Below, piece by piece: positions 28,433 to 57,818 of a DNA stretch of 64,000 nt. Source of the stretch: Bdellovibrionia bacterium (lineage in GTDB: Bacteria > Bdellovibrionota > Bdellovibrionia > Bdellovibrionales > JAGQZY01); contig JAUICP010000003.1 of assembly GCA_030427805.1 (NCBI GenBank), forward strand, positions 1-64,000. Direction: 5' to 3'. Under the pieces are notes generated by a model, which saw only the letters and a program-made list of their open reading frames with translations, was not told where the DNA came from and did no database searches. The position numbers and the translations under genes are program-made. Each line of letters begins with the position of its first letter. Position 1 is the first letter of the stretch.

Positions 28433-28444
28433 AAGGAGTTCATT

Positions 28445-29134: not shown

Positions 29135-29151
29135 TAAAGAGGTAAAGTTTT

Positions 29152-31679: not shown

Positions 31680-31699
31680 AACGTCCTCCCCGTCTTTTG

Positions 31700-32674: not shown

Positions 32675-32757
32675 AGACGACAGATTGGCAAAGCTCAAAC
32701 TAAGACACAAGTAAAAACCTCCATTGACCAGGTGCCCGCAAAATGCTCTCATGGGCT

Positions 32758-33468: not shown

Positions 33469-33482
33469 TTGGAAATTCACCA

Positions 33483-34172
33483 ATGACCTATCCCTTTGAT
33501 CAAAAACTTGCCATTGCCGTCTTTGTCAAAACCCCAGGAATGAGCCCGGCAAAAACCCGTCTCGGAAAAAGTATCGGACAAGAGAACGCCGAAGAGTTTT
33601 ACCTGCATTGTTTAAATATTCTCGATCAACGCTTGATCGACTTTAAAACTCAATTTTCTAGCACCATCGAAGTCTATTGGTCCGTCGCTGAAGAAGAGGG
33701 CTTAGATGCCCCCATTTGGCAAAATCACTTGCGAATTTTTCAAGGCGCGGGAACCCTCGGACAGAAACTTTTTAGCACACAAGAGCAGCTTTTTTTGCGA
33801 CACAAGAAAATCGCTTTTATTGGCGCCGACCTGCCGCAAATCCCTCTCGATCCACTTTTAGAATTTGCGCAAAATTCTTCAAAAAACACGATTCAGTACG
33901 GCCCAAGTCAAGATGGGGGCTTTTATCTCTATATGTCGGATCGTTCATTTTCAAAAAACGTTTGGGAAAACGTTGAGTACAGTAGTGAGCAAACACTTAA
34001 GCAGTTACGAGAACAGATGATTCAAGAAGATCCCTCAATCGAGGAGCAAAACCTTCTGCCCATATTCCAAGATGTTGACGAAATCTCTGATCTAAAAAAA
34101 CTTAAAACGAACTCTAAAATTGACTCTCCCGATTACAAAAGTCTCCGAATTTTTCTCGATCAGATCGTTTAG
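33483..34172 (+). CDS. DUF2064-type glycosyltransferase of the arsenosugar cluster
   Basis: 229 residues in the DUF2064 / arsenosugar-associated nucleotidyl- or glycosyltransferase family. Diagnostic blocks are FVKTPGMSPAKTRLG near the start, IGADLPQIPLD (acidic metal site) and GPSQDGGFYLY. It probably supplies or transfers the sugar with the upstream family-2 enzyme. The last quarter ends in a short helix with no further domain. Confidence 0.88.
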   Translation: MTYPFDQKLAIAVFVKTPGMSPAKTRLGKSIGQENAEEFYLHCLNILDQRLIDFKTQFSSTIEVYWSVAEEEGLDAPIWQNHLRIFQGAGTLGQKLFSTQEQLFLRHKKIAFIGADLPQIPLDPLLEFAQNSSKNTIQYGPSQDGGFYLYMSDRSFSKNVWENVEYSSEQTLKQLREQMIQEDPSIEEQNLLPIFQDVDEISDLKKLKTNSKIDSPDYKSLRIFLDQIV

Positions 34173-35868: not shown

Positions 35869-36531
35869 CTAGAGGCGGAAGTGAATGCCGCAGACAAGGC
35901 CGAACTCCGCTAGAGTAGCCGGGGCCGCTGAGACATCAAAGATTGTTGTACCGGCAATGAGTTCAGGTCTGAGAACAAAGCGCGGCAGCCAATGATAATC
36001 AACACCGACGTGAATACCAAAAAAAATTCCACTGGAACCAATCTTAGAAACAACGTCTCTTTCACGGCCAATGGCCCCATTGGCGATCCCTGTGCCGAAA
36101 CCAACAAATGGGGACCACCTTTGCAAGGTCACTGAACTTTCGAGTTCTTTTCGCGGTATTATTGGAACAGGATTAAGATAGTAGTAGCGAAGGGAACCGC
36201 CGGTAAAACCAACACCCGTCGAAAAAGGACCAAAGCGAAACCCTCTTCGATGGCCAATGGCCACCGTCCACTGATCGTGAATAACGGTCTCAACACTTAT
36301 TCCAAAATAACCAGGAGATTCTGCTCTGGAGATATCAAAGGTTTGGGTGTCACCGACCCGAACATTTTTTTCGATACCACTGGCACCAAATCCACCGAGA
36401 ACTCCGTAAACGAGATCCGATGGATCAAAGCGCCAGGCTTGGGCCGTCGAGGTCATCAGAAACGTCAGGAATAACACCAAGAAACTTTGGAAGTTTTGAT
36501 TCAAGTTGGGTCTAAGCTGCAAAATCCTCAT
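35869..36531 (-). CDS. outer-membrane beta-barrel protein (FliF/FliG-like locus)
   Basis: 220 residues with a signal peptide (LVLFLTFLMTSTAQA), then alternating Gly/aromatic strands (YFGISVETVIHDQWTVAIGHRRGFRFG) and a terminal HFRL, consistent with an 8-10-strand barrel. The start overlaps the 3' end of the FliF/FliG-like gene by 20 bases, so the two are co-translated and probably function together. No named family recognised. Confidence 0.7.
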   Translation of the reverse strand: MRILQLRPNLNQNFQSFLVLFLTFLMTSTAQAWRFDPSDLVYGVLGGFGASGIEKNVRVGDTQTFDISRAESPGYFGISVETVIHDQWTVAIGHRRGFRFGPFSTGVGFTGGSLRYYYLNPVPIIPRKELESSVTLQRWSPFVGFGTGIANGAIGRERDVVSKIGSSGIFFGIHVGVDYHWLPRFVLRPELIAGTTIFDVSAAPATLAEFGLVCGIHFRL

Positions 36532-38317
36532 CCGATGTATACCCTATTGATTGGATCGCTTCATCAAGGGCTATCTCCCCCTTCTGAACCATTTTTACCA
36601 ATTTGTCGTGTAAAGAGCTTATGTAAGCCTCTTTCTCACTGTCGGGCATGCGATCGGGTCTTGCTAAATCATCGGCCAAGATCTTTTTTGTTCTTGGCGA
36701 AACAAGCTCGAGCATAAAGTCAGCCATGTCGGGAACGATGCGCGCGTAAGCCATCAACTCCTCGTTATTAGCTTTCTTTAAAATCATTTCGAGCGGGCCC
36801 GGAGACCACTGCTCTAAGAAAGCAATATGAGGGTTTGTCATTTTAAACTGCTCAATGACGGGCCCCTCGACCTTTGGCAAGACTCTAATTGCCTCAACTA
36901 GATCCATTGTATCGATCAGTTTAGATAAGGTCAAAGAGAGTGAAACTTTGGACTCGTCCACTTCCTCACCAAAGTAGGGAGCAATTTTCTCTTCCATTTC
37001 AGAAAGACTATCTTTACTGATATCCGAGAGTTTTGCCGCAGCATTAAGCAACTCGACCTTTTTACTGCGCTCGAGGTTAGCGAAGTATCCCCGCCTCATC
37101 CCCTCTGGCATGTAAAGAGATACGATCGTTTGTATATCGACATCGTTTCCAAGTAGAACTTTATTAACGGTTCCAAGTGGTGCTTTACCAACAAAACTAA
37201 AAGGTCTGTGAAGAGACTCGGTACCGAGGTTCAAAGAGGCCACGAGATCCCAATAGGTTTTATTCACAAGCTGGTACTTCTTTTCATTGGGAAGATCGTG
37301 CATTTTTGCAAAGGTATCACCCATTTTCTGCTTGAACTCCTGTGGAATGGGCAAACTCCCCAAAACACTTCCAGAAATTTCTGCAAAACAAGCAATTTGC
37401 ATCAAACCGTCTTCACCTTGCTCGCACCACTCGTTAATGACGTTTCTCACTTCGCCAAGCATTTTTGGCGCGAGTTCACGTATTTGACCCGATAGCTGAT
37501 CGATTTTACCTAGGAGCGTAGGATCGGAGTCCATATCGAGGCCCGCGGCGGCAATCACTCCACCAGCGCCTGGCTCTGCACCTTCTCCAGCACCGGCTCC
37601 GCCACCTTCGAGTTTATTATTGATCGAAATGGGTGGCCCGGCTTCGCCCTTTTTAGCTCCGCTACCAGAAAGAATCTTAAACAAAAGTACACCCAGCAAG
37701 ATACTTAAAGCCATGACCATGTGGCCGGCTAAATCCTGGAGCTCTTTTAATTGGTCTACCAAGGTTTTTTGTGGAACTTCCTTTGGTGGAGGAAGGGGCG
37801 CAGGAGCTTCAATGGGATTTTTAATAAATTGAACTTGGGCCTTACCGATGGAACCGAATTCACTTTTAACGCGTGAACTGAGCCACTGATCGACCGTCTT
37901 CTTTGTCTCTTCACCCATGTTGTCTTTAAGGCCCACTTGAATATTGACCGATCGAATCGTGTATTTTTCAAGGGGATCGACTGCTCCCTGGGGCGTAATC
38001 GCATAGCGATCAAACAATTCATCAGCGTTGAGGTAACCCAAGTCTAAATCGGTAAACGGCCTTTGATTGGTCGTTTGTGCCCGCTGCTTTTCGTTGGAAG
38101 AATTAATTTCGATTCGGGCTCCGACGCGAAAGTGATTGCGATCAACGATTGTGGAAAGCTCTAGGCTATAGCGTTGAACGATCATCGACTCTAAGCGCGT
38201 TTTTGCACTGAGGACATCCGCTTTGCGCAAGGGACCACTTTGTCCGAAAGCGCCCATAGGCAGTGCCATGAGAAGTGCAAAAATAATTCGAATGTTTAAA
38301 ACGCGAAGTAAGCTAAT
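36512..38317 (-). CDS. FliF-like periplasmic domain-TM-FliG-like fusion protein
   Basis: About 601 residues. An N-terminal hydrophobic segment (IIFALLMALPMGAFG) leads to a periplasmic part resembling the second ring-building domain of FliF (YTIRSVNIQVGLKDNM). A transmembrane helix near residue 205-225 (MVMALSILLGVLLFKIL) and a Gly-rich linker follow. A helical cytosolic part then resembles FliG middle and C-terminal domains (PFSFVGKAPLGTVNKVLL; LKKANNEELMAYARIV; SPRTKKILADDL). Charged torque-helix residues of FliG look poorly kept. The frame has no ATG/GTG/TTG before the signal; ATT 38317, with AGGGA upstream, is the likely start. ATG 38269 would cut into the signal. Confidence 0.65.
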   Translation of the reverse strand: MSLLRVLNIRIIFALLMALPMGAFGQSGPLRKADVLSAKTRLESMIVQRYSLELSTIVDRNHFRVGARIEINSSNEKQRAQTTNQRPFTDLDLGYLNADELFDRYAITPQGAVDPLEKYTIRSVNIQVGLKDNMGEETKKTVDQWLSSRVKSEFGSIGKAQVQFIKNPIEAPAPLPPPKEVPQKTLVDQLKELQDLAGHMVMALSILLGVLLFKILSGSGAKKGEAGPPISINNKLEGGGAGAGEGAEPGAGGVIAAAGLDMDSDPTLLGKIDQLSGQIRELAPKMLGEVRNVINEWCEQGEDGLMQIACFAEISGSVLGSLPIPQEFKQKMGDTFAKMHDLPNEKKYQLVNKTYWDLVASLNLGTESLHRPFSFVGKAPLGTVNKVLLGNDVDIQTIVSLYMPEGMRRGYFANLERSKKVELLNAAAKLSDISKDSLSEMEEKIAPYFGEEVDESKVSLSLTLSKLIDTMDLVEAIRVLPKVEGPVIEQFKMTNPHIAFLEQWSPGPLEMILKKANNEELMAYARIVPDMADFMLELVSPRTKKILADDLARPDRMPDSEKEAYISSLHDKLVKMVQKGEIALDEAIQSIGYTSDEDFAA

Positions 38318-38320
38318 CTC

Positions 38321-39016
38321 TTAATTCCCTGTTGCCGGTTGAGCTGGTTTTGCGCCCTGCTGAGGTGCCGTGTTTCCACTGGCTGGAACTCGAGGAGGAA
38401 GCCTCGTCGGAAGCTTTAAGGTCTGTCGCACCTTAGCCGCCATATCGATAGCTGTCTTCATTTCTGGGTTCGCAGCAATGGCACTCTCATACCACTTTAA
38501 ACTCTCTTCAAATTTACCCTGGCCGTAGTAAATGGCCGCTTTCATGCTCAAAGCACGATCAAACTCTGGAAAGACCGCAAGAATTTTATCGATTTCAATC
38601 AAAGCTCGTTCAAGCTGCTGGCTCCGAGCAAATTGCTGAGTCAGAAATAATTTGTTCAAAATATCCTGAGCCGTTTTTAATTCTTCTTTTGAGCTCTTTT
38701 TTGATCTCAATTTAATATTTAATTGAGTGTCGAGCTGGCCGCTTCCGTTAACTGGAATATAGAGATCACGATCAACAAAACCATCCTTCTTAATAAGTAC
38801 GTTCACGAGACCCCCAGGAGAATTTTGCCCTTTGAGAATCTCTTCGAGCTCTACTCCTGTTTTTGTCACAGGTGTCGGCCCCAATGGACTCTCCTCACCC
38901 GTTGTTTGATCGACTATAAAAACCTCAGCCTTATCGGGTTCCGTCAAAACTTTGAAGGACGTCGCACAAGCTGAGAGTAGAATCAATCCTAAAAAACATA
39001 CTATTAAACGTTTCAT
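38321..39016 (-). CDS. PEGA-TPR lipoprotein
   Basis: 231 residues with a lipobox (LILLSAC). Residues 20-105 include a PEGA-type domain (KVLTEPDKAEVFIVD, GLVNVLIKKDGFVDRDLYI). Residues 110-200 hold two to three TPR units (LERALIEIDKILAVFPEFDRALSM, AAIYYGQGKFEESLKWYESAIAANP). A Pro/Ala/Gln-rich tail ends the protein. PEGA lipoproteins often bind peptidoglycan or surface-layer partners. The next gene begins, apparently at ATT, three bases after its stop, so the three genes form one transcript. Confidence 0.8.
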   Translation of the reverse strand: MKRLIVCFLGLILLSACATSFKVLTEPDKAEVFIVDQTTGEESPLGPTPVTKTGVELEEILKGQNSPGGLVNVLIKKDGFVDRDLYIPVNGSGQLDTQLNIKLRSKKSSKEELKTAQDILNKLFLTQQFARSQQLERALIEIDKILAVFPEFDRALSMKAAIYYGQGKFEESLKWYESAIAANPEMKTAIDMAAKVRQTLKLPTRLPPRVPASGNTAPQQGAKPAQPATGN

Positions 39017-39195: not shown

Positions 39196-42100
39196 TTACT
39201 GAACTTCGATGACGATCATTGAACTCACGAAATTAATGAATCCGGCTCCTGGGTTGACCCGAGTCATGAAGCGATCACCAGAGGTTAGTGTAAGCGCTCC
39301 GGAGGTCTGTACAGCGGTGCTATCGTTATTAAATAGAATGGGTGAGCCAGCCACTTCGCTCAAACCTGCCGCGCCAGAGTCATCGCTGTGATGAAGAAGA
39401 GAAACCGTGACATCAGAAGAGGCGTCGTCGGTAACAACGGCTCTAAAATAGGTCGTTGGATTCGAATACTGACTCAGATCGATTAAAGCTCGCTCCTCGG
39501 TATAGTCTTCAGAAGAACTCACGCTAGACCGGTAGGAATTGAGACGATGAATGATCTGTGCTTTTGATAGGTTTTCTAATCGCACCCAAATCCCCGCCTT
39601 GTAGAGTCTGACACTCCCTCCGCTACAGTCAATCTCACAGCGTAAGACGGGCTCAAATAGATCGCCGTTATTAGCAAGGGTAAATTGATCCACACCCTCG
39701 TCAAAAGGCACTGAGGCTAAATCAATTGTATTGTTGTAAAAACGAGTTTCGGTTCGCTCTACTAGCTGACCCGAGTTTGAGTTTTGTAGAGCGACGATAC
39801 CACTCGATGTTCCCTGAGTTGCAACTAAGGCTTCAAACTGCCACGCATTGAAATCAACAATTTTAGAGAGCTTGGTCGTGTCTTTAAGAAACCTTCCTCC
39901 ATTGGGAACTTCTTCAAAACTTTCTGACGATGTCGAATAAACACCAATACTAGCATCTTGATTATTAGGCGACTCATCGGAACTACTCAAAGGAAAGTAA
40001 AGTCTTGTCTTGGTCGCATCGGTCTGATTAACGTAGGCCTTCGCTCCGTAAACATTGAGATCTCCGTCATTCGTCGTTTGTTCGACCTGTATTCTATAAA
40101 TTTCATATCCCGCGGTTGGCGTAAAAGTCGTGCGATAGCGCGTGGGAGTACCTACTCCCGACGGAATAAGAAGGCTTCCAACGACGACATCTGACTCGTT
40201 GACCAAGTGAACATTTCGAGCGGCCCCATCTGAATTAGTCGCTATAACTTCAAATTCATAGCTCGTCACACCGTCGTAGGCATCTGTATCAATACTTGTT
40301 TGCGAGCGTTCAAAACTGATGGCTCCCAAAGAGCTTGATGACATTTTCACGTCCGTTAACTCAATGGGAACTTGCAAATCAATATAGCCCGAACGAACAA
40401 TCGAGTCCTCATTCGAATATTGTGACCGACTTCCATCGGCAAAAATGGCTTCAACAACATAAAAATAATTTCCATTGGCCTCAATTGCTGAGTCCGTATA
40501 GGAATTCGTACCTACGTTGGCGATAATCCCATAAGGGCCGCCGGTAACATTACTTCGTCTGACATTATAGGTTACAGCTCCAGCTAAAGTATCCCAGCTG
40601 AGGTCAATTCCTCCTGTGGAGTTACTCGCTGCAAGGTTTGTCGGACCACCATTAAGATCCACAGCCTGTTCCGTCGAGTACGCCGAGGGAACGCCCGAAT
40701 AACTGAGCGAGCGAATGACATAGAAATAACGATTTCCAGCCACGACACTCGTATCGTCATAGGAAGTATCTGTTGGTCCTGGGCTAGCAACGAGTGAATA
40801 AGGTCCACCCTGTGTTGTCGACCTCAAAATTTCATAACCTTGAATACTCGGAGTTTGAATCCAACTGAGGTTCACCTCTGAATTAGTTGTAGCTGAAGCA
40901 TAAAATCCTACTGGTACTAGTGGACTTGTACTTAAATTCACACCGTCACTAGCTACCGACATTGACATCTCAGCGCCACTGGCATTGAAACCCTGATACT
41001 TGTAGTAATAGGTATAGTTAGGATCGACGGTATTATCTTGATAGGTGTTGACCCCAACTCCAGATGCGATCTCATCAAAGACAAATCCATCCAACGAGCG
41101 GTAAACTGAATAGTTAACAGCCCCAGGAATGGCAACCCAATCGACCTGAACCGTCGAGGCATCAAAATATTGTGCGTCGGGTTTTGTCGGCTCTAACTGG
41201 GGAACAATTATAACTTCATTAGAGTAAGGAGATTCAGTCGAGCCAATCAAAGCTTTTACCGAGAAAAAGTAGGTCGTGTCCGTTGTATTCCCGATGACGA
41301 CAATCCCGTGACTTCCGCTAGAGCTTCTGACTGGAGCTCCATAGGCACCCGAACTTGTCGCCCTATAAATATTGTAGGATGTCGCAGAGGGAACGGATGC
41401 CCAGGACAGTATAATTTCCGTACCCGTATTATTGTTTTCAGCCACGAGATCCGTTGGCGTCGACGGATTTCTCCCCGGAGTGTGCCCTGTACTACTTGGC
41501 GACTCTAAACTCTGCACACCGTAGTCCACGACAAATTTATAAAAGTATATACTACCGTTGACGACCGTCATGTCGACATAATTGGTCGATGGGTAATCCG
41601 TAGCGATTGGAGTAAAGTTTATCCCATCTGTAGATCGATATAGATCATAATCGACAGCTCCCGCAAGAGGTGTCCAATTAATCTCAATCTGTCCGTCACC
41701 AACAATTCCCGATGGAGCCGAAGGTTGAGAAAAAGTGGAAGCCGAGGTTGGCGTTGACGTATAATCCGTGAGAGCTACTGTTGCAATAACTCTAACAAAG
41801 TATTCCGTTTGCGGTAGGAGTCCCGTAATATTGAAAGTATTGACTCCGGTTGAACCTTTTAGAACATAAGGACCACCGACGTTTGTAGCGACCTCAACTT
41901 TGTAAAGGGTCGCACCGCTCACATGGGGCCAATCGGCACGCATATTTGAAGTACTATTAACCGTCAGACTCACGTTCGAAGGAATCGTCGTATCCGTCAA
42001 CATCCCAGACTTACCAACTGACATTTGCCCTCGGGTTAAGTCAGCAAATCGAGCTTGAACTTTGTAGTAATACCCAACTCCACTCGCCGCAGTTGTATCG

Positions 42101-45100
42101 GCATAGGTTGTTAACCCTGTTGTATCGATCTCAGTATAAGGCCCATTGATATCTGTAGACCTCCAAATGGCATAATCTTGAACAAGAGCGACATTCCCCC
42201 AGCTCAAATTAATTTGGGTGGCAGCACCAGTGGCCGTAAATCCGGTAATTGGGGCTTCGCGAATATCGACCACATTCGAGTCGGCCGACTCAAAACTTCC
42301 CCACACGGTTGTGATTTTAAAATAGTTACGATCCTCTAAAACAGGGGCCGCGAGAATGAAATTATTGGTGACGTAAGACACTAAAGTGTAAGGCCCGCCA
42401 GGACTTGTCGCTTGATAGAGATTAAATCCATTGTAATAATCAGGGGCCGTCCAATTGAGTTCGATACGACCATCGGATTCTATTCTACGGATGCTTAGAT
42501 TCGTCGGAGCCACAGGGTCGGCTGCAGCAGTACCACTCCTAATCGCTGTAGGGTAGCCGACAAAAATCTTATCCGTATCAACGTCTATAACGAATGCTTG
42601 AACGTAATAAAAGGCTCCCGACCCATTTGCAGTTGGGTCGCTATAGGAATTCGTTGTCAATCCACCGGCTAATAGAGTGAATGGCCCGTCATGGTTATCT
42701 GATTTATAGAGATCAAACTTTAACGTGTAACCATTGAGATCCGCATGGACTGCCGGATTCGACCAAGAAAGTAAAATTTCGCCATTACCTGGATAAATAT
42801 TAAGGTTTGGCGCTTGGGTCGAATAGAAGCCGACGGTATTAGAGCCAGACGACTCGTTAATTCCCCAAATGGATCGAACACGAAAATATTCAAGATCGTC
42901 ATTTCCATAGCCACAGCGATTGGTCGATGTCGATCCCACTGTTGCTAAGGGGTTATTTGCAGACTTCGTATTTCCGCGCATAAGACGAAAATTATTGTAA
43001 TACTCAGGCGCAGTCCAAGAGAGCTGAATTCCTCGAGCACCAGCACAGGCTTCCATGGAACTATTTACAGTCATAACCAGGTTAGTGGGAGTCCCAGATG
43101 TTACACGAGGCGTAACTGAGGCAATATTGGATTGAATACTTTGGCCTGCTGGGTTTTTAGCAACCACATAGTAATAATAATTCTGACCATTAACTAATCC
43201 CGTATCAAAATAGGTACTATTAGTTTGATCAACTCCTATATCAGTAAAAGGTCCTCCGTACTCAGTCGAACGAAAAACTTTATAGGACATGTTTTGTGGA
43301 AAACCACTCCACGATAGATTGACCGAAGAACTATCTGGATAAGCTACCAGACTCGCCGCCTGAACCGGTGCCGGTGAAGAAATCGTTGTATTGACGGTCG
43401 AAGAGTATTGACTTCGGCCTGTATCATTACTTGCAAAAACTCGATAGAAATAGGTATCACCATCACTCACCGAGTAGTCGCGAAAATTATTGGAAATTAG
43501 ATCCGAAGCGACCACCGAGAATGGGCCCGTTGGGCTTCCTGACCGCTCCACTGAATATCGGGGCAATGGATTCGACGTAGTATCGGGGAACCAATTAAAT
43601 GTAACCGAACCATCTAAGTTAGAAATTATTTGCGGATTACTTGGACTGAGATCAAAGTGAGTAAAGTTGGTTAGAAAGGTACAGGCCGATTTCGTCCCTA
43701 CTTCGTTGACTGAATCTCCGTAAAGAGCGCTAACAGCGTTATCGGATATCTGAACTTCAATCCCAACACCTTCAAAGAGTGCTGGCGAACCACTTGAAAG
43801 TTCGTTCGTACAACCAGAATCATCGTAAATTCCAACACTAACTTTGTTCATAAAATCAGAACTGGCGCTAAAACTTCCCGATATCCGCGTAAGTGGACTA
43901 TAGGAGGGCGAAGCCGGACTCGCACTAAGATAAAGTGGAGCTCCTGGAACTAAATTATTATGAGTATAATTTGTCAAAAAGGTACAACTACTCTGGTTAC
44001 CAGCATCATCATAGGCTTTTGCGTAGAGAGTGGTTTGAGCATTTTGTGCCACATTTATCTGAATTCCCGTCGTGTTGTACTCGGTAGGGGTACCCTCTCC
44101 CAATTTGCTCACACAGGAGAAGCTATCAAAGAATGCCACTCGAGATGGTGGAAGTTGACTGGCAGGATTGTTGAGTACATCCCCTTGAATCATGGGAGTG
44201 GTTGAAGAATTGTTTGGCGAAACTGGAATCGTAGCCGCAAAACTGGGATTATTAGGGACGACTGTATTGTGAATAAATTGAGTGATGAAAGTACAAGCCG
44301 AGTCATTCCCATAAACGTCGGTTCCGATCGCGTAGATATCAATAGTTGAATTGATCGGCACCATAATTCCAATTCCCGTTGAAATATATTGCCCTCGAGT
44401 TCCACTCCCGAGGGCGTTGGTGCACAAATTACTATCGTAGAGAGTTACGTTAGCGAGGGAATTATCCGCAGTTCCGACAATGAATGGGTTATTTGAAGCA
44501 TTCGTTGGCGAAACTGGAAAAGTTGTAAAGAAACCAGGTGCGACAGCGGCTGTGTTAGAATGACTGTAGCTCGCAAGAAAGTTACAACTAGATACATTGC
44601 CTTCGATATCTGAAACAGTGACGTACACAGCCGTATCAGCATTGGCATCAGCTGTAATCATGACTCCAGCGCCCTCAAAATCGGCTATGGGTCCATCTCC
44701 AATAGCCATGGCACAGTTTTCATCTTTAAAAAAGTTAACGTGAACTGTTCGTGGAGCTCCCGTTCCACGAATTAATGGCGTCGTACTCGCATTCGTCGGT
44801 GAAGCCGGTATGGTTTCGAGGAATAAAGGAGCATTTGGTGCGATCGTATTATGGGTGTAATCAAGCATAGCAATACAAGCTGATCCGTTGCCAGCACCAT
44901 CAAATGCCTTTGCGAATATGGAAGTGACTGAGTTTGCTGGAATGCTCGCAGCAATACCCGCACCTTCAAAATCTGATTTTGTTCCCGTTCCGATTTGGTT
45001 GAGACAAAGATTCGAGTCAAAAAAGTAAACATTTTCAGTGTCAGCAGAGCTATTTCCAGAAATTCTCGGCAAAGTAGTAATACGAGTTGGACTCGGCGGA

Positions 45101-46098
45101 TTTGCATTCACAAAAACGGGATCAGATGGTGGAATATTATCGTGAACGTAGTTTGTTAGTAAGGCACATACAGATGGGTTGCCAAATTCATCAATAGCTT
45201 GCGCATAAATCGTCGTCGTCGAATTCGCAGAAACATTTATTTGCAGACCCGCATTTTCAAAATCAACGGGGTCTCCATCGACAAGGAGACTCGTACAACC
45301 AGAGTCGGTATATAGGCCGACATAGGTACTTCCGACCGTGGCACTTCCGCGTATGATTGGATCGAGAGCAAAATTATTAGGAGACGTTTCACTCATCGCG
45401 ATAAAGACCGGAGCTGCAGAGACTTGGTTGGAATGTCGGAATTCCGTCATAAGAGTACAATCTGAATAATTGCCAAAGGCATCCTTAGTTCTGGCGTGAA
45501 TGGGAGTCGTGGCATTTTCGGCCAATTGAACTTGAATCCCTTGACCGGCAAAGGTCTGAGCCGTACCAGAGGCAAGCAGGTTGGTACAGGTATCGTCGTC
45601 GTAAAACTCGATATCACCAGACTCTGGAAAGGTTCTACCGAAAATTCCGGGGGCACTGGTTTCTCTCGATGGCGACTCTGGCGAAATACTACTAAATCGC
45701 GGATTATCGGGTTTGAGTTCAGGGTATGAATACTCGCGCAAGAAAACACAATCTCGACTCTGCAAAGTGCTGACTGAGAGCAAAATAGACTCACTACTCA
45801 CTGGAATCTCAATGGTAGTTCCATTTTCTTTAAAATCTCGAATTAAACTAGAGCCGAGAACACTTCCTGTACAGGTATTATCTGAAAAGAACTGGATCTC
45901 ATCAATATCGACGATGGCAGCCGATTGAATCTGCCCGGTAATCAACAAAGAAACTGTCGTATCGTCATAGTCCGTCACACTGATTGCCGAAATCAATACG
46001 GGGCTCTGAACTGACTTTTCAGCCAACTCCCCTTCTCTACAAGAGACTTGCATGAGAAGTAGTGCAATAAGAAGTATAAATCCACTTCTAATTTTCAA
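39196..46098 (-). CDS. giant lipoprotein with Cys-rich Ig-like and FN3 repeats, 2300 aa
   Basis: The lipobox LLMQVSC is followed by about eight repeats of 80-100 residues, each with a Cys pair and the pattern FFDxxC...GxG...FExAGI...IYAKAxDxxGNxSxCxFLTNYTH. Next come about twelve FN3-like domains (xLSW...YNxYRSTxxGGPY...YFYKV). The C-terminal 300 residues contain lectin-like beta-sandwich segments. This is the architecture of a surface adhesin or a structural filament. The start is TTG with GGAG upstream. It is the third of three giant lipoprotein genes in tandem on the minus strand. Disulfides within repeats are likely. Confidence 0.8.
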   Translation of the reverse strand: MKIRSGFILLIALLLMQVSCREGELAEKSVQSPVLISAISVTDYDDTTVSLLITGQIQSAAIVDIDEIQFFSDNTCTGSVLGSSLIRDFKENGTTIEIPVSSESILLSVSTLQSRDCVFLREYSYPELKPDNPRFSSISPESPSRETSAPGIFGRTFPESGDIEFYDDDTCTNLLASGTAQTFAGQGIQVQLAENATTPIHARTKDAFGNYSDCTLMTEFRHSNQVSAAPVFIAMSETSPNNFALDPIIRGSATVGSTYVGLYTDSGCTSLLVDGDPVDFENAGLQINVSANSTTTIYAQAIDEFGNPSVCALLTNYVHDNIPPSDPVFVNANPPSPTRITTLPRISGNSSADTENVYFFDSNLCLNQIGTGTKSDFEGAGIAASIPANSVTSIFAKAFDGAGNGSACIAMLDYTHNTIAPNAPLFLETIPASPTNASTTPLIRGTGAPRTVHVNFFKDENCAMAIGDGPIADFEGAGVMITADANADTAVYVTVSDIEGNVSSCNFLASYSHSNTAAVAPGFFTTFPVSPTNASNNPFIVGTADNSLANVTLYDSNLCTNALGSGTRGQYISTGIGIMVPINSTIDIYAIGTDVYGNDSACTFITQFIHNTVVPNNPSFAATIPVSPNNSSTTPMIQGDVLNNPASQLPPSRVAFFDSFSCVSKLGEGTPTEYNTTGIQINVAQNAQTTLYAKAYDDAGNQSSCTFLTNYTHNNLVPGAPLYLSASPASPSYSPLTRISGSFSASSDFMNKVSVGIYDDSGCTNELSSGSPALFEGVGIEVQISDNAVSALYGDSVNEVGTKSACTFLTNFTHFDLSPSNPQIISNLDGSVTFNWFPDTTSNPLPRYSVERSGSPTGPFSVVASDLISNNFRDYSVSDGDTYFYRVFASNDTGRSQYSSTVNTTISSPAPVQAASLVAYPDSSSVNLSWSGFPQNMSYKVFRSTEYGGPFTDIGVDQTNSTYFDTGLVNGQNYYYYVVAKNPAGQSIQSNIASVTPRVTSGTPTNLVMTVNSSMEACAGARGIQLSWTAPEYYNNFRLMRGNTKSANNPLATVGSTSTNRCGYGNDDLEYFRVRSIWGINESSGSNTVGFYSTQAPNLNIYPGNGEILLSWSNPAVHADLNGYTLKFDLYKSDNHDGPFTLLAGGLTTNSYSDPTANGSGAFYYVQAFVIDVDTDKIFVGYPTAIRSGTAAADPVAPTNLSIRRIESDGRIELNWTAPDYYNGFNLYQATSPGGPYTLVSYVTNNFILAAPVLEDRNYFKITTVWGSFESADSNVVDIREAPITGFTATGAATQINLSWGNVALVQDYAIWRSTDINGPYTEIDTTGLTTYADTTAASGVGYYYKVQARFADLTRGQMSVGKSGMLTDTTIPSNVSLTVNSTSNMRADWPHVSGATLYKVEVATNVGGPYVLKGSTGVNTFNITGLLPQTEYFVRVIATVALTDYTSTPTSASTFSQPSAPSGIVGDGQIEINWTPLAGAVDYDLYRSTDGINFTPIATDYPSTNYVDMTVVNGSIYFYKFVVDYGVQSLESPSSTGHTPGRNPSTPTDLVAENNNTGTEIILSWASVPSATSYNIYRATSSGAYGAPVRSSSGSHGIVVIGNTTDTTYFFSVKALIGSTESPYSNEVIIVPQLEPTKPDAQYFDASTVQVDWVAIPGAVNYSVYRSLDGFVFDEIASGVGVNTYQDNTVDPNYTYYYKYQGFNASGAEMSMSVASDGVNLSTSPLVPVGFYASATTNSEVNLSWIQTPSIQGYEILRSTTQGGPYSLVASPGPTDTSYDDTSVVAGNRYFYVIRSLSYSGVPSAYSTEQAVDLNGGPTNLAASNSTGGIDLSWDTLAGAVTYNVRRSNVTGGPYGIIANVGTNSYTDSAIEANGNYFYVVEAIFADGSRSQYSNEDSIVRSGYIDLQVPIELTDVKMSSSSLGAISFERSQTSIDTDAYDGVTSYEFEVIATNSDGAARNVHLVNESDVVVGSLLIPSGVGTPTRYRTTFTPTAGYEIYRIQVEQTTNDGDLNVYGAKAYVNQTDATKTRLYFPLSSSDESPNNQDASIGVYSTSSESFEEVPNGGRFLKDTTKLSKIVDFNAWQFEALVATQGTSSGIVALQNSNSGQLVERTETRFYNNTIDLASVPFDEGVDQFTLANNGDLFEPVLRCEIDCSGGSVRLYKAGIWVRLENLSKAQIIHRLNSYRSSVSSSEDYTEERALIDLSQYSNPTTYFRAVVTDDASSDVTVSLLHHSDDSGAAGLSEVAGSPILFNNDSTAVQTSGALTLTSGDRFMTRVNPGAGFINFVSSMIVIEVQ

Positions 46099-46162: not shown

Positions 46163-49100
46163 TTAATTGCCTAAAAAGATCTTTAACTGGTCATTCGTTC
46201 CATCAACAACTGATAGGTCAACAGCCCCATCATTATTTAAATCTTCAATTTGCACATCCGAAGTATTCACTCCCGTGCTCACTTGGTAGGTCACCGAAAA
46301 ATCACCGACCAGAGAACCCAGCAAAACCGTGGCAAACTGATTCAGGCCGTTTCCAACGATTAAATCTTCTCGACCATCATTATTGAAATCTCCCTTTGAA
46401 ATTCCAGTGGGCGTATCTCCAGCAAAGAAACTGACCGCCGGTGCAAAGGATCCATCACCGTTCCCAAGAATGACGCTAATACTAGCAGCGTTACTATTAC
46501 TGACAGCGATATCTACAGCTGTATCTGCATTCATGTGCCCCGCAATAATACTATTGGGTCCCGACTGAACTGTATAATTGGTTCCACTTTGAAAAGTACC
46601 ATTACCATTTGAAAGGTAGATCCCTATGTTATTATCTGACTGCTGACTGATACCCACATCCACAGAATTATCGCCGTTAAAGTCAGCGGCGATGATATCT
46701 GAAGGTTGTGCACCCGTCCCAGTGTCGGATCGGCCACCAAAGGTTCCATCCCCAAGCCCTGGATAAAAAGAAAATGTATTTGCCCCACCATTGGTGACAA
46801 CCACGTCGATGAGTCCATCATTATTAAAATCATTGGTCGTCATGGCCGTTGGCTGAGAACCAGTCGCATAGACCACAGGTGTATTAAAACCCCCTCCGGC
46901 CAAGGCGATGAATACGCGCATGGCATTGGTTCCGAGCTCAATCACACAGATATCGAGCCATCCATCGCTATTAAGATCAACAGCCTGAGCATCGACCGGG
47001 TTACTCCCCGTAGCTAATGTTGTGTAAGGAATATAAAAGCCGAGATTATTGCCTAAAAACAGACTAACCGAACCGGCGGCGTTGTTCACAACACCTTTGT
47101 CATTAATTCCATCGTTATTAAAATCACCATAAAAGCTACTCGCCGCCCCGGTACCGGTATCGGTCACGAAACCGAGCTTACCACCGGTTTGACTCGGAAT
47201 AACGTGAACTTTATTTTCACCATTCGAAACAGCAAATAGATCTGAATAGGCATCGCCATTAAAATCACCGGAGCTCACATTAATGGGGCCAATCAAAGTG
47301 CTCAGGGCTCCTTGGTCAGTAAATGTTCCGTTATTCAGACCATAGAGTGCAGATACAGTTCCGTCTCCAATATTGGTCACAAATGCATCGGCCCAGGTAT
47401 CACCATTGAGATCGGTAACATGAAGGGAGGTTGGACTATTACCCACGCTTGTAAAAATTCCCAGATTAAAAGTACCATCTTGATTATTTAAGTAAACGGC
47501 AAGGTTGTTATCGACATTACTCACAACAGCAACATCGACGTAGTTATCTGAATTGAAATCTCCGACGTCGAGTCCTGCCGGTGCAACTCCAGTACTATAT
47601 TTAACTTGAGCGGCAAAGCCACCAACACCATCGTTGAGATAAATACTGAACGAATCTTCACCGGCGTTGAGCGCTACAATATCATCACCGTTAACTCCAT
47701 CAAAGTCACCCACGGCAACACGACTTGGAGAAACGCCTGCATTGAGAATAATCGGTGCATTAAAGGTACCGTCATTATTACCGGTTCTTACCGCGACAAT
47801 ACTCGTCCCTGCAGAAGGCATAACAAAATCAAGGATCATATCACCATTAAAGTCACCAAGCTTTACGTCAACCGGAAGGTTTTCAAGACCATCTAAGGCC
47901 GTATTCACAGGAGAATCGAATGTTCCGTCACCATTACCCGCTATAAAGGAGTACTCAGACGACCCACTACAAGAAAGAAGAAGATCGAGAAAGGTGTCGT
48001 TATTAAAGTCAGCTCCCGCCATACCCGTCGGACCGTTACAAAGTCCAAGAATTTTAGTTTGGGCTTGAAACAACCCATTACCCTTGCCGCGAAGGACACT
48101 AATAGTGGAGTCACCAGTATTAAGTACCAAGGCATCTTGATAGGTATCGCCATTAACATCGGCAACGACGACGTCATCGGGACTACTACTCACATTGAAT
48201 TTTAAATCAAAATTCCCTGTATTGTTGTTATTAAAAAGAGTTTGAAATTTAGCAATCGTATTACCACTGGCGGCCACATCCGGAAGATTTCCTGTTAATG
48301 GCTTAACTCCAACATTGGCGCGAGCGGATTGATAGAGGTTTTTAACATTCATGGTCGCTAAACCATTGGCATCGGTTTGCTGCAACATTGCATCGAGGAG
48401 CAACACATCACCCGCAGTCTTTTGAAAAAGAACCGAGTAATTGGGAACGGCATTGCCATAGCGATCGGCTACCTTAATAATGAGCGGATCGTCGAGCATA
48501 TTGCCGACAGTTTGGTTTTGATCGTTACCACTATTCATCGGGAACTCAAAATGATCGGGAACGTCCGGAAGAACTTGTACTGAAATTGTTTTTGAAATCC
48601 CCTGACTGTCTTCAACCTGAATTTCATCAGTCACTCCAGATGTGGTACCCGCCGTATAGGTATTGGTACCAGCATCAAAGCTTCCACCTGAATTATTATT
48701 AGTGAACGTCACTGTGTAGTCGTTGGTCCCACCAGAAATTGCAAAACCCTGGTCATTGGCAACAACCACTTGAGGGTTATTGGGAACGACCTGGAGATTT
48801 CTCTTTTGCCAAACAAAGCTGACCGAGGCTTCATTGCCGGCCTGGTCCCTTTGCGTGACCGTAATGTCATAATCGGCATCAGCAAATTTTGCCTGACTGA
48901 TTGAAAACTCAGAGTTCGCACAAACGGTTTCTCCTGTGGCATCGCCACTGAGAATTATAGTGGACCCCGTCTCACAGCTTCCTTGAACGTCAACTGCAGC
49001 CTCACCCGATAGGTAGGGATTAACGAGTGGATTACTGAGAGCCGGTTTAGAAACACTTGTCTTTCTCGTCCACAGTAAGTTCACGGCATCCGACTCTCTA

Positions 49101-49447
49101 CCATCGGTGACTTGAGTGACAAAGAGGTTATAAAGCCCATCGGCAGTCAGCGGTACATCAAAGGCGTAGGTCGAATTTTCGCACGGAACTTTAGCTGACA
49201 CACCAGTCCCCGAGAGTCTGACGCTATAACCCGTAATACAAAATCCTTCGATTTCGATATTCGTACTATTTGAAAAATAAGGTGAAGTGCTTGGCACCGA
49301 GATACTTGGACTCGCAAGATCGGGAGCCAATAAAGAAGGAGCATCCGGCCCTGGCTGGACATTGACTCCATCTTTACAAGATATCAGCGCAAAAACTGAC
49401 AGCAAAAGAAGATATTTTAATGTTTTCGACCCACAAAAACTTTTCAC
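46163..49447 (-). CDS. giant FG-GAP/VCBS-repeat lipoprotein, 1094 aa
   Basis: The lipobox SVFALISC is followed by two or three Ig-like domains (residues 40-400, with Cys pairs). About a dozen FG-GAP/VCBS repeats then run to the end. Each has the form VxVGDFNGDxxxDxVVxNxGxNxVSxYLGNGDGTF, with the DxNxDxxxD calcium-loop residues of an integrin-like beta-propeller. Predicted surface-exposed and Ca2+-stabilised. GTG start, 64 bp upstream of the 2300-residue gene. Probable role in attachment to surfaces or prey (inference). Confidence 0.83.
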   Translation of the reverse strand: MKSFCGSKTLKYLLLLSVFALISCKDGVNVQPGPDAPSLLAPDLASPSISVPSTSPYFSNSTNIEIEGFCITGYSVRLSGTGVSAKVPCENSTYAFDVPLTADGLYNLFVTQVTDGRESDAVNLLWTRKTSVSKPALSNPLVNPYLSGEAAVDVQGSCETGSTIILSGDATGETVCANSEFSISQAKFADADYDITVTQRDQAGNEASVSFVWQKRNLQVVPNNPQVVVANDQGFAISGGTNDYTVTFTNNNSGGSFDAGTNTYTAGTTSGVTDEIQVEDSQGISKTISVQVLPDVPDHFEFPMNSGNDQNQTVGNMLDDPLIIKVADRYGNAVPNYSVLFQKTAGDVLLLDAMLQQTDANGLATMNVKNLYQSARANVGVKPLTGNLPDVAASGNTIAKFQTLFNNNNTGNFDLKFNVSSSPDDVVVADVNGDTYQDALVLNTGDSTISVLRGKGNGLFQAQTKILGLCNGPTGMAGADFNNDTFLDLLLSCSGSSEYSFIAGNGDGTFDSPVNTALDGLENLPVDVKLGDFNGDMILDFVMPSAGTSIVAVRTGNNDGTFNAPIILNAGVSPSRVAVGDFDGVNGDDIVALNAGEDSFSIYLNDGVGGFAAQVKYSTGVAPAGLDVGDFNSDNYVDVAVVSNVDNNLAVYLNNQDGTFNLGIFTSVGNSPTSLHVTDLNGDTWADAFVTNIGDGTVSALYGLNNGTFTDQGALSTLIGPINVSSGDFNGDAYSDLFAVSNGENKVHVIPSQTGGKLGFVTDTGTGAASSFYGDFNNDGINDKGVVNNAAGSVSLFLGNNLGFYIPYTTLATGSNPVDAQAVDLNSDGWLDICVIELGTNAMRVFIALAGGGFNTPVVYATGSQPTAMTTNDFNNDGLIDVVVTNGGANTFSFYPGLGDGTFGGRSDTGTGAQPSDIIAADFNGDNSVDVGISQQSDNNIGIYLSNGNGTFQSGTNYTVQSGPNSIIAGHMNADTAVDIAVSNSNAASISVILGNGDGSFAPAVSFFAGDTPTGISKGDFNNDGREDLIVGNGLNQFATVLLGSLVGDFSVTYQVSTGVNTSDVQIEDLNNDGAVDLSVVDGTNDQLKIFLGN

Positions 49448-49589: not shown

Positions 49590-52500
49590 TTAATCCTTTT
49601 TCGGAACCCTGATTAACCGGTTCGCTTCAAAATCGGTGACGTAAAGAAATTCATTATCGCCATAAATGTGGCCCCTCAGCCCATTAAATTGTCCTAGGTA
49701 AAATCCAATCCCAACTCGTCCGCCAGTACACCAGCCCGGAGTAGACAGAGTCGCACCAGCACAACCCGTTTCACCACCTGTAGGCGGATAGGTCGCTGAA
49801 ACAGCCCCCTTCCAACCTTCTAGAGTACCCGAAGTTTTATTAATCTTACCGATTCCGAAGGTGTCACCGTCGCGACTGCACGGATAAATACTCATAAAAT
49901 AGATATCCGTGCTATCTGCCCAAACACTGATAGGGTAATCGCAGTATTGCCCACCACTTGCGATATCTGCAGGATCCGTCATCCAAACATTGGTATATTG
50001 ATCAAGTCGAGAACGGGTCGCTCCAGCATAGGATCCGTCGAGATTAATTCGATCGATTCGGGTGTTTCTTGTATGAGCCACATAGAGGTGCACTCCATCA
50101 GAAAAAATCCCAGCTTGACTATAGGACCAGAGCTCAAAGTTAAATCCACCACCACGATCGTTTCTATAGTTAGCGCGCGAAGCGGTACCGCCCATACACC
50201 AACCACTTTGTGAAACGTTGTAGTTTCCGTTAGAACCCCAAGTACAACCCGAAGATGGATTCGAGCCAATTCGGCCAATCCAGCCCTCGTAAGATCCGGT
50301 TACAGCATTGTATTTAGCAATTCGATGGTTTTCAGCATCAACAACATAAAGGCTTCCGCCCGTGTATGTAATACCATTAGGTCTTCTCATACCACCATTG
50401 GCCTGCCCGTATTCACTCATACCACCGAGACACCACCCCGGAGTAAAAGTATCTACAGGAGCACCATTACAACCCGGGTCCCCACCCGTCGGAGATCGAT
50501 TAATTCGACCGATCCAACCACCGTAGGCACCAGTTACTACATCAAATCTCTGAATTCGATGAAGTCCATAATCGGTCACATAAACCCAAGTTCCATCGGT
50601 TGTTAGACCATGGGGCTGATACATAATTCCGTCGGTGAGATCATCAATCATATTGATGTCATTCCAAGTCCAATTCGGATAGAAGTTTGCACCTGTACAC
50701 CAACCAGGACTCGGTCCCATTCCGTTGGCCGAAGTACATCCGGCAACTCCACCCGTCGGCTTTGAAGTCACTCCACCGACCCAACCGACAAGTTCTCCGG
50801 TCTTTTTACTGATTTTTTTAATTCGCGAAGAGGTTCTTTCGGCAACGAAAATATAATCTGCCGTTGTCGTCACACCAATTGGGTTATAGGACGAATCATC
50901 ATCAAAACCGTGATATTCTGCAGCCAATGCTCGATCCGAACTCCACTCTTTTGGACTGATACTCTCTAGACCTAACGAGCCCTCGTAAGCACCCGTCGTT
51001 GAATTAAACTTTCGAATCGATGGTATTTGTCGACTCACGACAAGTATAGAACCGGTCCCGTCATATACGACACCGTGGGCATTAATAAATGAATCTTCAT
51101 CGAGACCCGGCTTGTGAGTACCACCAAGACACCAACCCGGAGTATTGTCATTAGGTGAAAGGCTGTTACAGCCCGATCCACCAGCATCACTCATACCCGC
51201 GTTGTTAGCAACTTTACCCATCCAACCTTCGATCAGGCCGGTCTGGCTAATTTTTAAAATTCGCTCATCATCGGCCACATAAAAGTTTGTCCCATCACTT
51301 GCCATTTGCTGAGGACTCGTCCATGTATAATTTAGGTTACTAAGAAGTCCAAGGTTTGCTCCCGAATCTTTGTCATATTGTATGACCACGCCTCCATATG
51401 CAGCCTCAACTAAATAGAGAGAACTACCTTCCACATGAAGTGAAAACCCATATCTAATACCACCAGCGACTCCACCATAATTTCTCGGATCCACGACGCG
51501 AGACTCTCCCCCCGTACACCATCCAGGGGTCAACTGACCTGCAGCCGTAATACTACATCCAGCCGCTCCGCCTGTCGGAGTCGTTCTTATAAGACCAACC
51601 CAACCAATATAAGCGCCTGTCGCTTTATCAAATTTCTTAATGGCCCCATCTACAGCAACATAAACGTAGGAGTCATCTACAGCGATGCCCCGTGGATTAT
51701 AGAGACGACCATCACCACTCGTACTCGTCGATGGCTGTCTCGCACTACCACCAATACACCACCCGGGCATCTCCGTATCATTAGCAGCCGTCGTACAAGT
51801 TCCTGGCCCACCAGTCCCAGGTCCAGTTGGAGGTGTCGAGCTCGGCGTCCCGATGAAGCCATCAAAGGCTCCCGTATCAGCATTGTAGCGACCGACCGTG
51901 TCCCCTGAAATATTGGTCACAAAAACATAGTTCTCATCAACAGCAATTTCTTGCGGGTCATAGAGTCCACCTAGATGTGGGTTACCCCCTACGGTGCGCC
52001 CCCCTTTACACCACCCGGGAAGTACCTGATAATTATTAGTCGAAATACAAAGGGCACTACTTGGGTTGGCGAGGTTACTTCCGGTTGAACCAATCCCGTT
52101 TTCTTTTCGAAGGCGCCCCATCCACCCTATATATTCATTGAGTTCATAGTCGTATTTAAGGATTTTATCGCCGTCCAAGTCCAATACATATAAGTATTTC
52201 TTATCGGGACTCATAGCAATTCGTCCCCCTGTGTAGATACCGTCATAACGAGCTGCCACTGGCTTAATTCCCGTTCTAAATGGTAGTAACTGGCCAAACT
52301 CATCGTTCTGGGTAGAAGCCGTTCCAAGAAATCCCCAGTCACTAGTCACAGACCAGGCCTGCGTATCGCTGGCAAGATTCCCATCATTATCTATAACTGT
52401 TAAATTTAGACTGGATTCAGGATACTGACCTTTAAAATAAAAGGTCTTTGCACTCTGGCCAGGGTTAAACAAGAAGCTTGTAATCTGATTCGAACATTCA

Positions 52501-55769: not shown

Positions 55770-56855
55770 TTAGAAACTAATAGAGCCGAAAACGCTAATC
55801 GCGTCGATATAGATTTCTTCAAAGCCGACCTTAAAGCGATGGTTGGAATAGGAAAACCCCAACTGCGCCTGTCTTAGGTTATCAAGATTCATGCTCCAGT
55901 CTAAGACCAGGCGGAATGAACTCTCAGCCAATGGATCAGAAAACTCGATGGGAGAATAGTGAAATTCTCCGGAGTAGCTATTTTGTCCATTTCTGTAGTA
56001 GGTCGTTCTAATTCCAAGATCGGCACTGTAAAGGCCCGAAAATCCAAAAGGACTGCCGTAGGAGACAAAATTAATGGTACTCGCTCCTAAAAATAGCTTG
56101 GTTCTATACTTGGGATTTTTGATCAATTTCACCGGATAGGTGATACCAATCCTCCCCTCCATAAACTGGGGGTTTTGCTCGATCGGCGACGAATCGTAGG
56201 TAAAAACCGTAGCCGTAAAATCACCGAGAAGACCAAAGGTGTTCCCCTTATCGGGACTGACATAGCGAACACCAAGCAACAGCGACTGGGCTACGAAGGT
56301 TCCAAAACTCGTTTGTTCGTAGACGAGAAAACTGTGACCCAAGGTAAAAAGAACTGAATCAAAGGGTGAAACCAATTTAAACTCTCTGGCTTCGGGCGCA
56401 AATAAATAGAGAATTTCCCGTTCTTCGGCACCCTGCTCATTTCGCGCGCGAATTTCTACAGCATTGAGTCTTGATCTCAGGTAAGCGTACAATACAAAGC
56501 TGCCATCGGCTTGCTTTCGCATGGGAAGTTTATCGCCAATAAAAAGCTGCCAGCCAGGGCGATTAAATTCCACTTCCAATTTTACGAGGGGGCGAAATGA
56601 ATCATTCTGTGGGATGAGAAAGACCGGAATTCTCTCTTTGCTAATTTTTAAATCGGAGATGATGTTTTTTCCAGAACGATCGCGCAGAATATGGGCCAGC
56701 CAAAGAGCTCTTTGCGCCCGCATGAGTTGCTTTTCTTCTTTACTGATCTCTTTAGGTTCTTCTTTTTTTTCATCTTGAGCCATTGCTTGATGGGCCCCAA
56801 TAAACATCGGGCAAAATAGGCAAATCAAAAGCAATCTCGATAGTTTAGAGAACAT
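55770..56855 (-). CDS. outer-membrane barrel with Ig-like periplasmic domain
   Basis: 361 residues with a signal peptide (LLLICLFCPMFIGAHQAMA). A charged helical region (EEKQLMRAQRALWLAHI) and a beta-rich periplasmic domain (FRPLVKLEVEFNRPGWQLFIGDKLPM) follow. A C-terminal barrel from about 160 (FTLGHSFLVYEQ...ISVFGSISF) ends in F. No known family. It follows the LysM lipoprotein by 39 bp in the same orientation and is probably the outer-membrane end of that assembly. Confidence 0.7.
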   Translation of the reverse strand: MFSKLSRLLLICLFCPMFIGAHQAMAQDEKKEEPKEISKEEKQLMRAQRALWLAHILRDRSGKNIISDLKISKERIPVFLIPQNDSFRPLVKLEVEFNRPGWQLFIGDKLPMRKQADGSFVLYAYLRSRLNAVEIRARNEQGAEEREILYLFAPEAREFKLVSPFDSVLFTLGHSFLVYEQTSFGTFVAQSLLLGVRYVSPDKGNTFGLLGDFTATVFTYDSSPIEQNPQFMEGRIGITYPVKLIKNPKYRTKLFLGASTINFVSYGSPFGFSGLYSADLGIRTTYYRNGQNSYSGEFHYSPIEFSDPLAESSFRLVLDWSMNLDNLRQAQLGFSYSNHRFKVGFEEIYIDAISVFGSISF

Positions 56856-56894: not shown

Positions 56895-57818
56895 TTACTT
56901 ATTCTTTTTTTCAGACTGACTATTAGAAGGCTTTCTCAACTGAGGCTTTACCGGACTAGCCTTTTTATCCTCGTAGTAGAGCGTAAAGCCATAGTAGATC
57001 TTCTTCGGATTGCGAATCAACTGTGGATTATTCTTCCAAATGTCCTTCCAGCGATCAGCAGTACCGTAAAGCTTCTTAGAAATCGACTTAAGAGTATCAT
57101 TCTTACGAATGAGATAGGGCTTACCCTCTTTGCGAATATAGACATATTTCACATTGTTAATCGTCAGCTCGGTACCAACTTTCATCTTGCGCGGATGACC
57201 GATCTTCTTCTTATTGACCTTGAAAATGTCCTTCCAGCGCAGGTAATTGCCGTACTTGTCGAAGGCTATTTTCATAAGGGTATCACCCAATTTAACTATA
57301 TAATTGATCGTTTTTCCGCCTTTGAGTGGAGGCAATGTACTCGAAAGTGAACGACTCTTTTTGCCTTTAAAGTTCAAAGGGCCATTTTTCTTGCGGTTAT
57401 TTGCCTGTACGAGGGGACCTCGATCTTCTTTTACGATAAGCTGACTCTCGTCAATCTCAACGTACTCTTCACCCGAATCATCTTCTGGAATTCTACGATC
57501 TTCTTCTGCACTATTAATGTTGTTGTAGCTAAAGTCTTTGGAGCGACGACCACTTTTCGTGAGGTTCTCGGCAGCCTCAGAGGAACCCCCCATAAGCTCA
57601 GGGTCTTTCATTACAATGGCGCCCTCTTCTGTGATCTTCTCAATATCTTGGGCGATTTGTACGGGTAAAGGAATCGCATTCCCCTTTTGCGCGGCTTTCT
57701 GATAAAAACCAGGATCTCTTGGCATCTCGTCACTATCAAAACCAAGCCACGAGGCACAGCCCAGGAGACCAAAAAGCATAAATAAGATTGAAACCGAATA
57801 AACTAATAGCCGCTTCAT
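56895..57818 (-). CDS. lipoprotein with two LysM domains
   Basis: 307 residues with a lipobox (LFGLLGC). Disordered acidic/basic middle, then LysM 1 (YIVKLGDTLMKIAFDKYGNYLRWKDIF) and LysM 2 (YLIRKNDTLKSISKKLYGTADRWKDIW), ending in a Lys/Pro/Ser tail. LysM domains bind peptidoglycan. As an outer-membrane lipoprotein it would link the wall to the barrel encoded next. Both LysM units carry the WKDI extension, typical of longer LysM repeats. Confidence 0.9.
   Translation of the reverse strand: MKRLLVYSVSILFMLFGLLGCASWLGFDSDEMPRDPGFYQKAAQKGNAIPLPVQIAQDIEKITEEGAIVMKDPELMGGSSEAAENLTKSGRRSKDFSYNNINSAEEDRRIPEDDSGEEYVEIDESQLIVKEDRGPLVQANNRKKNGPLNFKGKKSRSLSSTLPPLKGGKTINYIVKLGDTLMKIAFDKYGNYLRWKDIFKVNKKKIGHPRKMKVGTELTINNVKYVYIRKEGKPYLIRKNDTLKSISKKLYGTADRWKDIWKNNPQLIRNPKKIYYGFTLYYEDKKASPVKPQLRKPSNSQSEKKNK

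Follow-up and report, generated by a model that had tools for sequence, protein, structure and literature searches.

A membrane-anchored FliG-like fusion protein with a dedicated MotAB stator suggests a flagellum-independent rotary machine in the envelope of Bdellovibrionota

MotAB and FliG are treated as hallmarks of flagella. A gene that joins a FliG-like torque region to a membrane-anchored, ring-motif domain among lipoproteins and outer-membrane proteins raises the question of what such a chain does outside a flagellum. The window, i.e., the whole 64,000-nucleotide stretch of DNA analysed here, corresponds to contig C3:1-64000 of the host genome, and the gene lies on its minus strand at 36512..38317, encoding a signal peptide, a periplasmic domain, one transmembrane helix, a linker, and a helical FliG-like region. 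The earlier note had called this open reading frame as a gene, and it is a real one: the same gene layout recurs in relatives from 26 of the 119 genomes of the order. Long matches (E<1e-60) occur in 39 of the 369 genomes of the phylum, and the family is spread across Bdellovibrionota. The members of the family alignment (A1, 25 rows) are only about 20-44% identical to the window protein; a single-sequence scan of the genome contigs with the fusion returned a 99% identical MAG contig as its sole match.

Counted from the first ATG at 38269, the fusion possesses 585 residues, and from the ATT at 38317 it possesses 601. No in-frame ATG, GTG, or TTG exists upstream of the ATG at 38269, and the ATT is the sole plausible in-frame start there, located 3 nt after the stop codon of the preceding lipoprotein gene. 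The 601-residue form adds a signal peptide, as in the relatives, and the gene seems to start at this rare ATT codon. The packing is equally tight at the other end, where the fusion overlaps the barrel gene by 20 nt. One member of the family stands alone: at L099:9211-10905, a 564-residue fusion gene matched in three pieces has no lipoprotein, barrel, or MotAB neighbours and is possibly decaying or repurposed.

The region resembling the middle and C domains of FliG comprises residues 356-570 (36560..37204, minus strand), delimited by profile and alignment. Single-sequence searches of Pfam, NCBIfam, and the PDB with the window protein were near-blank, with FliG_C reached at E=0.03, under the Pfam cut-off, and only the family profile resolves the identity. 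Searched against all PDB sequences, the A1 profile gave 13 matches, all of them FliG (best E=3.2e-12, over profile positions 367-580), which bears out the FliG-like middle and C domains proposed earlier. Among the 25 A1 members, Pfam matches were obtained for FliG_C in 18, FliG_M in 13, and the related MgtE_N in 12. Simultaneously, the profile of a sister family (A2) matches the flagellar FliGs across the phylum at approximately 1e-17 to 1e-22. The relative in genome G031, which we take to be Bdellovibrio bacteriovorus HD100, belongs to this sister family and lies above the Pfam cut-offs for FliG_C, FliG_M, and FliG_N. Foldseek with its predicted structure retrieved FliG chains at E-values down to 4e-8, including FliG_C of the MotAB-FliG structure 8ucs at a target TM of 0.77. 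Judged by sequence comparison, the FliG assignment is solid. MgtE_N and Tubby-like similarities were considered as the true identity of the fusion and rejected as weaker than FliG. The cytosolic N domain of MgtE shares the FliG-type helical repeat fold, but the fusion carries no channel domain, and FliG chains outscore MgtE in both sequence and fold. Compared with flagellar FliG, a separate soluble protein encoded in the flagellar operon beside FliF, the present protein is a membrane-anchored fusion; the real FliF and FliG of the host genome are located elsewhere (L120).

The charges of the torque helix, K264, R281, D288, D289, and R297 in E. coli FliG numbering, are partly retained. Upon alignment to T. 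maritima FliG, an acidic residue occupies the D288 position in 25/25 members and the D289 position in 23/25, corresponding to D533 and D534 of the window protein. K264 is lost, 12/25 members have a basic residue at R281, and R297 is not alignable. The poor conservation of these charges, remarked upon earlier, thus holds only in part.

The periplasmic domain (residues 13-148 of the 585-residue form, 37826..38233, minus strand) adopts an alpha-beta-beta-alpha-beta topology in the AlphaFold2 model, as in ring-building motifs. In this model (pLDDT 75.6, pTM 0.47), two helices (13-38 and 116-141) and three strands (47-57, 103-114, and 142-148) precede the transmembrane helix at residues 170-201 (37667..37762, minus strand), also indicated by hydropathy, and the cytosolic region after it is all-helical. 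Foldseek against the PDB placed FliG chains at the top and FliF RBM3/S-ring chains next, the latter with a probability of 0.9-1.0 and a target TM of approximately 0.5 at weak E-values of 0.2-1; a static secretion-system ring, PrgH/PrgK of 5tcp, was also weakly matched. The model of the HD100 relative agrees, with RBM3 at E=0.03-0.2 and probability 1.00. Alignment of the N domain by hhalign with a shallow profile of four FliF sequences was negative, and PF01514 (FliF/YscJ, the RBM1/2 region) matches only true FliF, with zero matches in the two genomes, G060 and G035, that are discussed below. A ring-building part with one transmembrane helix, as the earlier note had it, is thus supported by the predicted fold but not by profile comparison, and the FliF claim is made at the fold level only, given these weak E-values and the negative hhalign result. 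In such a reading, the fusion would be a FliF cut down to RBM3 and its second transmembrane helix and joined to FliG, lacking RBM1 and RBM2, the part of FliF that surrounds the export gate.

Around the fusion, a cluster of approximately 28 kb extends along the minus strand (35869-63506), with motAB at its far edge. Downstream of the fusion lies a small outer-membrane beta-barrel-like protein of 220 residues (35869..36531; OMP_b-brl E=0.004, below the cut-off; family c2, 33 loci), and upstream lies a PEGA-like TPR lipoprotein of 231 residues with the lipobox LSAC (38321..39016; family c0, 37 loci), which is kept beside the fusion. The lipoprotein-fusion-barrel order is conserved across genomes. 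Next to these are three very large proteins: an exported protein of 2300 residues with fibronectin type III repeats and a lipoprotein-like N terminus (39196..46098; c5, 15 loci), a lipoprotein of 1094 residues with FG-GAP repeats and the lipobox LISC (46163..49447; c7), and a lipoprotein of 1946 residues with fn3, Big/invasin-like, and NHL repeats and the lipobox LASC (49590..55430), found at the same position in L124 and L126. They are followed by an exported protein of 361 residues with no Pfam match, barrel-like by eye only (55770..56855; c14), a LysM lipoprotein of 307 residues with the lipobox LLGC (56895..57818; c10), a coiled-coil protein of 1350 residues with neither a transmembrane helix nor a signal peptide, whose C terminus is conserved in four other clusters (57961..62013), and a GYF_2-domain protein of 492 residues with one transmembrane helix (62028..63506; c9), all on the minus strand. 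The c5 and c7 families are missing from many Bdellovibrio-type loci, which contain instead a HAMP-SpoIIE phosphatase and a FecR-like and/or vWA-like protein, the last two labels assigned by eye (L041, L042, L045, L096, L098, and L137); these neighbours hint at regulation and a surface-binding partner. In the fusion cluster, no FliM/FliN-like partner and no export gate, rod, hook, or filament gene was found. Lipoproteins, proteins of the outer membrane, and giant surface proteins accompany the fusion instead. The locus is non-flagellar, as first supposed. The notion of an undescribed envelope system is likewise supported, but its three-gene extent was drawn too small, the cluster comprising some 28 kb plus motAB.

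The stator genes lie just past the window. MotB_plug and MotA/ExbB domain matches at C3:64815-65850 led to MotA at C3:64518-65345 (plus strand), which starts 518 bp beyond the window end and is divergent from the GYF gene, and to MotB at C3:65656-66363 (plus strand). Between motA and motB, a 30-bp tandem repeat is present in 5.6 copies at 98% (L117:10365-10532, equal to C3:65365-65532). The earlier statement that no other flagellar gene is present may hold in the window, where part of the open reading frames was scanned, but fails immediately outside it (C3:64518-66363). Within the stretches analysed, MotA or MotB is near the fusion in 30/48 loci, with a median MotA gap of 782 bp; by our own estimate, approximately three MotAB pairs per 3.5-Mb genome place a random gene less than 10 kb from one in about 2% of cases. 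In four further loci (the host's own and those of G060, G035, and G085), MotAB is situated about 25-30 kb from the fusion in matching gene order, and in G062 and G111 it is found on a second contig together with the other genes of the cluster. Fusion loci with no MotAB in the analysed stretch (e.g., L035, L033, L082, and L086) are explained in part by contig ends.

These neighbours are stators of the PomA type. The neighbour MotA matches PomA over its full length (E=6e-37), with the channel residues P151 and T186 kept in 35/35 and the PomA R88 position in 30/35, and the neighbour MotB possesses the Asp motif in 29/29 together with plug and OmpA domains. The PomA charges E96, E97, and E99 matter for torque; at these positions the neighbour MotA carries mostly K/N or hydrophobic residues, and the stator-rotor interface is therefore altered. 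In a tree of 57 MotAs, those belonging to the flagella of these genomes group together in a single clade (100/100), away from the rotor MotAs, with two stand-alone pairs and a third-rotor MotA on long branches with no firm placement. The mirror-tree correlation between the fusion and its MotA is r=0.67 (21 genomes) and 0.72 (11 genomes), with 0/2000 permutations, whereas that between the fusion and the flagellar MotA of the same genomes is r=-0.02. The neighbour MotAB is a dedicated PomA-type stator that is co-inherited with the fusion.

A MotAB-driven FliG-like chain could nevertheless serve the flagellum, as a modified FliG/FliF that feeds an extra MotAB into the single polar flagellum or as its alternative rotor module. 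FliG domains are kept in the fusion, and most carriers are flagellated, FlhA being present in 37/39 genomes with a long family-1 match. Against such a role, G060 (99% complete) and G035 (97%) hold neither FlhA nor FliF, yet both possess the fusion and MotAB on one contig, approximately 25 kb apart and in the order of the window cluster, and the MotB_plug gene on the fusion contig of G060 is the only one in that genome. The absence of co-variation with flagellar MotA, and partners other than rod, hook, and export genes, also argue against a flagellar accessory.

The HD100 genome bears on both sides of this reading. It contains three motAB pairs, at 0.128, 2.919, and 3.171 Mb, and the second adjoins the sister-family fusion gene (2913420-2915153 on the chromosome), a PEGA-TPR lipoprotein, an outer-membrane barrel-like protein, and a SpoIIE-type phosphatase. 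From position, order, and strand, we infer that this pair is Bd3021/Bd3020, the locus tags given for motAB2 (PMC11323537). The title of Morehouse et al. 2011, cited in the same paper, states that all three B. bacteriovorus motAB pairs contribute to flagellar motility; as far as a title goes, this favours three pairs serving one flagellum and argues against strict dedication of MotAB2. On the other hand, the FliL protein Bd1076 bound MotB3 and not MotB2 (PMC11323537). Taken together, an accessory flagellar role is unlikely, although it fares best among the alternatives. Bd0149/Bd0150, known as biofilm and Tn-seq genes (PMC11323537, PMC6561027), were also considered as the HD100 rotor and rejected, the region at about 130-140 kb having a stand-alone motAB alone and no fusion.

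The fusion system is thus probably a flagellum-independent, ion-driven rotary machine of the envelope. Its motor core, the fusion together with MotAB, is well supported by genomics, and the steps beyond it are proposed as follows. The fusion would be the rotor subunit, with its periplasmic domain assembling into a ring comparable to the RBM3 (S-ring) layer in FliF, its single transmembrane helix spanning the inner membrane, and its cytosolic part forming a FliG-like torque ring. The MotAB of the cluster, anchored to peptidoglycan via the OmpA domain of MotB, would turn this ring through the FliG_C-like domains, while the GYF/transmembrane protein and the coiled-coil protein may position or gate the rotor from the cytosol. 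Rotation could then travel outward via the two lipoproteins with PEGA-TPR and LysM domains and via the outer-membrane barrels, reaching the giant fn3/Ig/FG-GAP surface lipoproteins, which would be moved or tensioned in gliding, adhesion, or prey contact. This surface output is suggested by guilt by association with the neighbouring genes.

Less likely still is a static trans-envelope scaffold, in which torque has been lost, the role of MotAB is that of an ion-gated regulator or a peptidoglycan clamp, and the ring organises how the giant lipoproteins are assembled or secreted. The altered charges on the MotA interface, the loss of the K264 equivalent, and the lack of any switch protein among those found would suit it, and ring-building motifs are also present in the static rings of secretion systems, of which 5tcp PrgH/PrgK was the weak match. 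However, the stator features are complete, from the MotB Asp and the channel Pro/Thr to the plug and OmpA domains, the FliG acidic pair is conserved, and the fusion is co-inherited with MotA. The static or differently driven ring suggested by the earlier note is not supported, given these PomA-type MotAB genes, which belong to the same cluster, are co-inherited, and are kept in flagellum-less genomes.

At 26651-30272 (plus strand), approximately 6 kb from the rotor genes, the window also contains a GltG-like FHA/TonB protein (E=1e-56 with NCBIfam GltG, under that model's cut-off) and, behind it, one protein of the TolQ/ExbB type and two of the ExbD type; together they make up a compact gliding-motor module resembling GltG-AglRQS. 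Its AglRQS-like genes were rejected as the stator of the rotor, since MotAB lies just past the window end and the module is not a conserved neighbour of the fusion in other loci. A TolQR/ExbBD- or Agl-Glt-like energy transducer, with MotAB travelling along or pulling on a complex in the envelope and the fusion serving as an adaptor rather than a rotor ring, might be read from this module and from the GYF and long coiled-coil proteins, which bring to mind GltJ and AglZ, but it is very improbable, the neighbour stators being MotAB of the PomA type, plug and OmpA domains included, and not of ExbBD or AglRQS type; to our knowledge, no FliG-like partner exists in Agl or Tol systems. Between this module and the rotor cluster, an arsenosugar biosynthesis set is located at 31344-34172, in which radical SAM ArsS (TIGR04167) and an associated peroxidase-like protein (TIGR04169) pass their cut-offs and two divergent glycosyltransferases (TIGR04283 and TIGR04282) stay below theirs.

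The host genome contains two more MotAB clusters, L081:6194-11581 and L118:6420-10809. Both include a PEGA-like lipoprotein, a very divergent fusion-like protein with a transmembrane helix (659 and 560 residues, respectively), and a small exported protein, and a close relative of the 560-residue protein adjoins MotB in L132; these clusters are possible second and third rotor subfamilies. A broader picture, in which flagellum-independent rotary machines driving surface adhesins are widespread in Bdellovibrionota, with no fewer than three divergent subfamilies of rotor, each having its own MotAB, and the one adjacent to HD100 motAB2 works in a gliding or prey-contact motor, is tentative and rather doubtful as a whole.

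Compared with known machines, the flagellar motor shares the FliG middle and C domains, PomA-type MotAB complete with the plug and OmpA domains, and, at the level of the predicted fold, the membrane-anchored ring-motif domain, but here the rotor is a single polypeptide lacking RBM1/RBM2, and its partners are lipoproteins and barrels of the envelope together with giant surface proteins. Engineered FliF-FliG fusions, such as those of a Vibrio S-ring study (PMC11481574; PDB 8z4d and 8z4g), indicate that a single ring-and-torque chain is compatible with ring assembly; they derive from flagellar proteins, whereas the present fusion is natural, shortened, divergent, and outside flagella. In the Myxococcus Agl-Glt system, an ion-driven motor is linked across the envelope to adhesion proteins at the surface, and GYF and vWA proteins also occur near some rotor loci, but the Agl motor is TolQR-like with no FliG ring, in contrast to the MotAB proper and FliG-like rotor described here. 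Bacteroidota GldLM with type IX secretion is a non-flagellar rotary machine moving giant surface adhesins, but it is not MotAB-homologous (PMC13104615) and has no FliG-like ring. A 2025 stator survey equates the MotAB-type group with flagellar function (PMC12505986), and in the open-licence full-text literature no natural FliF-FliG fusion or non-flagellar FliG/MotAB rotor was found, an earlier subscription or preprint account being possible.

The components of the core are related to those of the flagellum; hence, the newness lies in the machine and not in the motor chemistry. If the reading is correct, a stator and rotor ring retained in the absence of an export apparatus would mean that the motor core of the flagellum has been put to a second use, much as its export core has been in injectisomes, with consequences for views of how the flagellum came together during evolution. 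A 2026 review describes the machinery behind Bdellovibrio gliding as unidentified (PMC13104615), and the rotor could supply the motor still sought for gliding on surfaces or for attachment in predatory bacteria, a question that the relative beside motAB2 in HD100 opens to direct test in the model strain.
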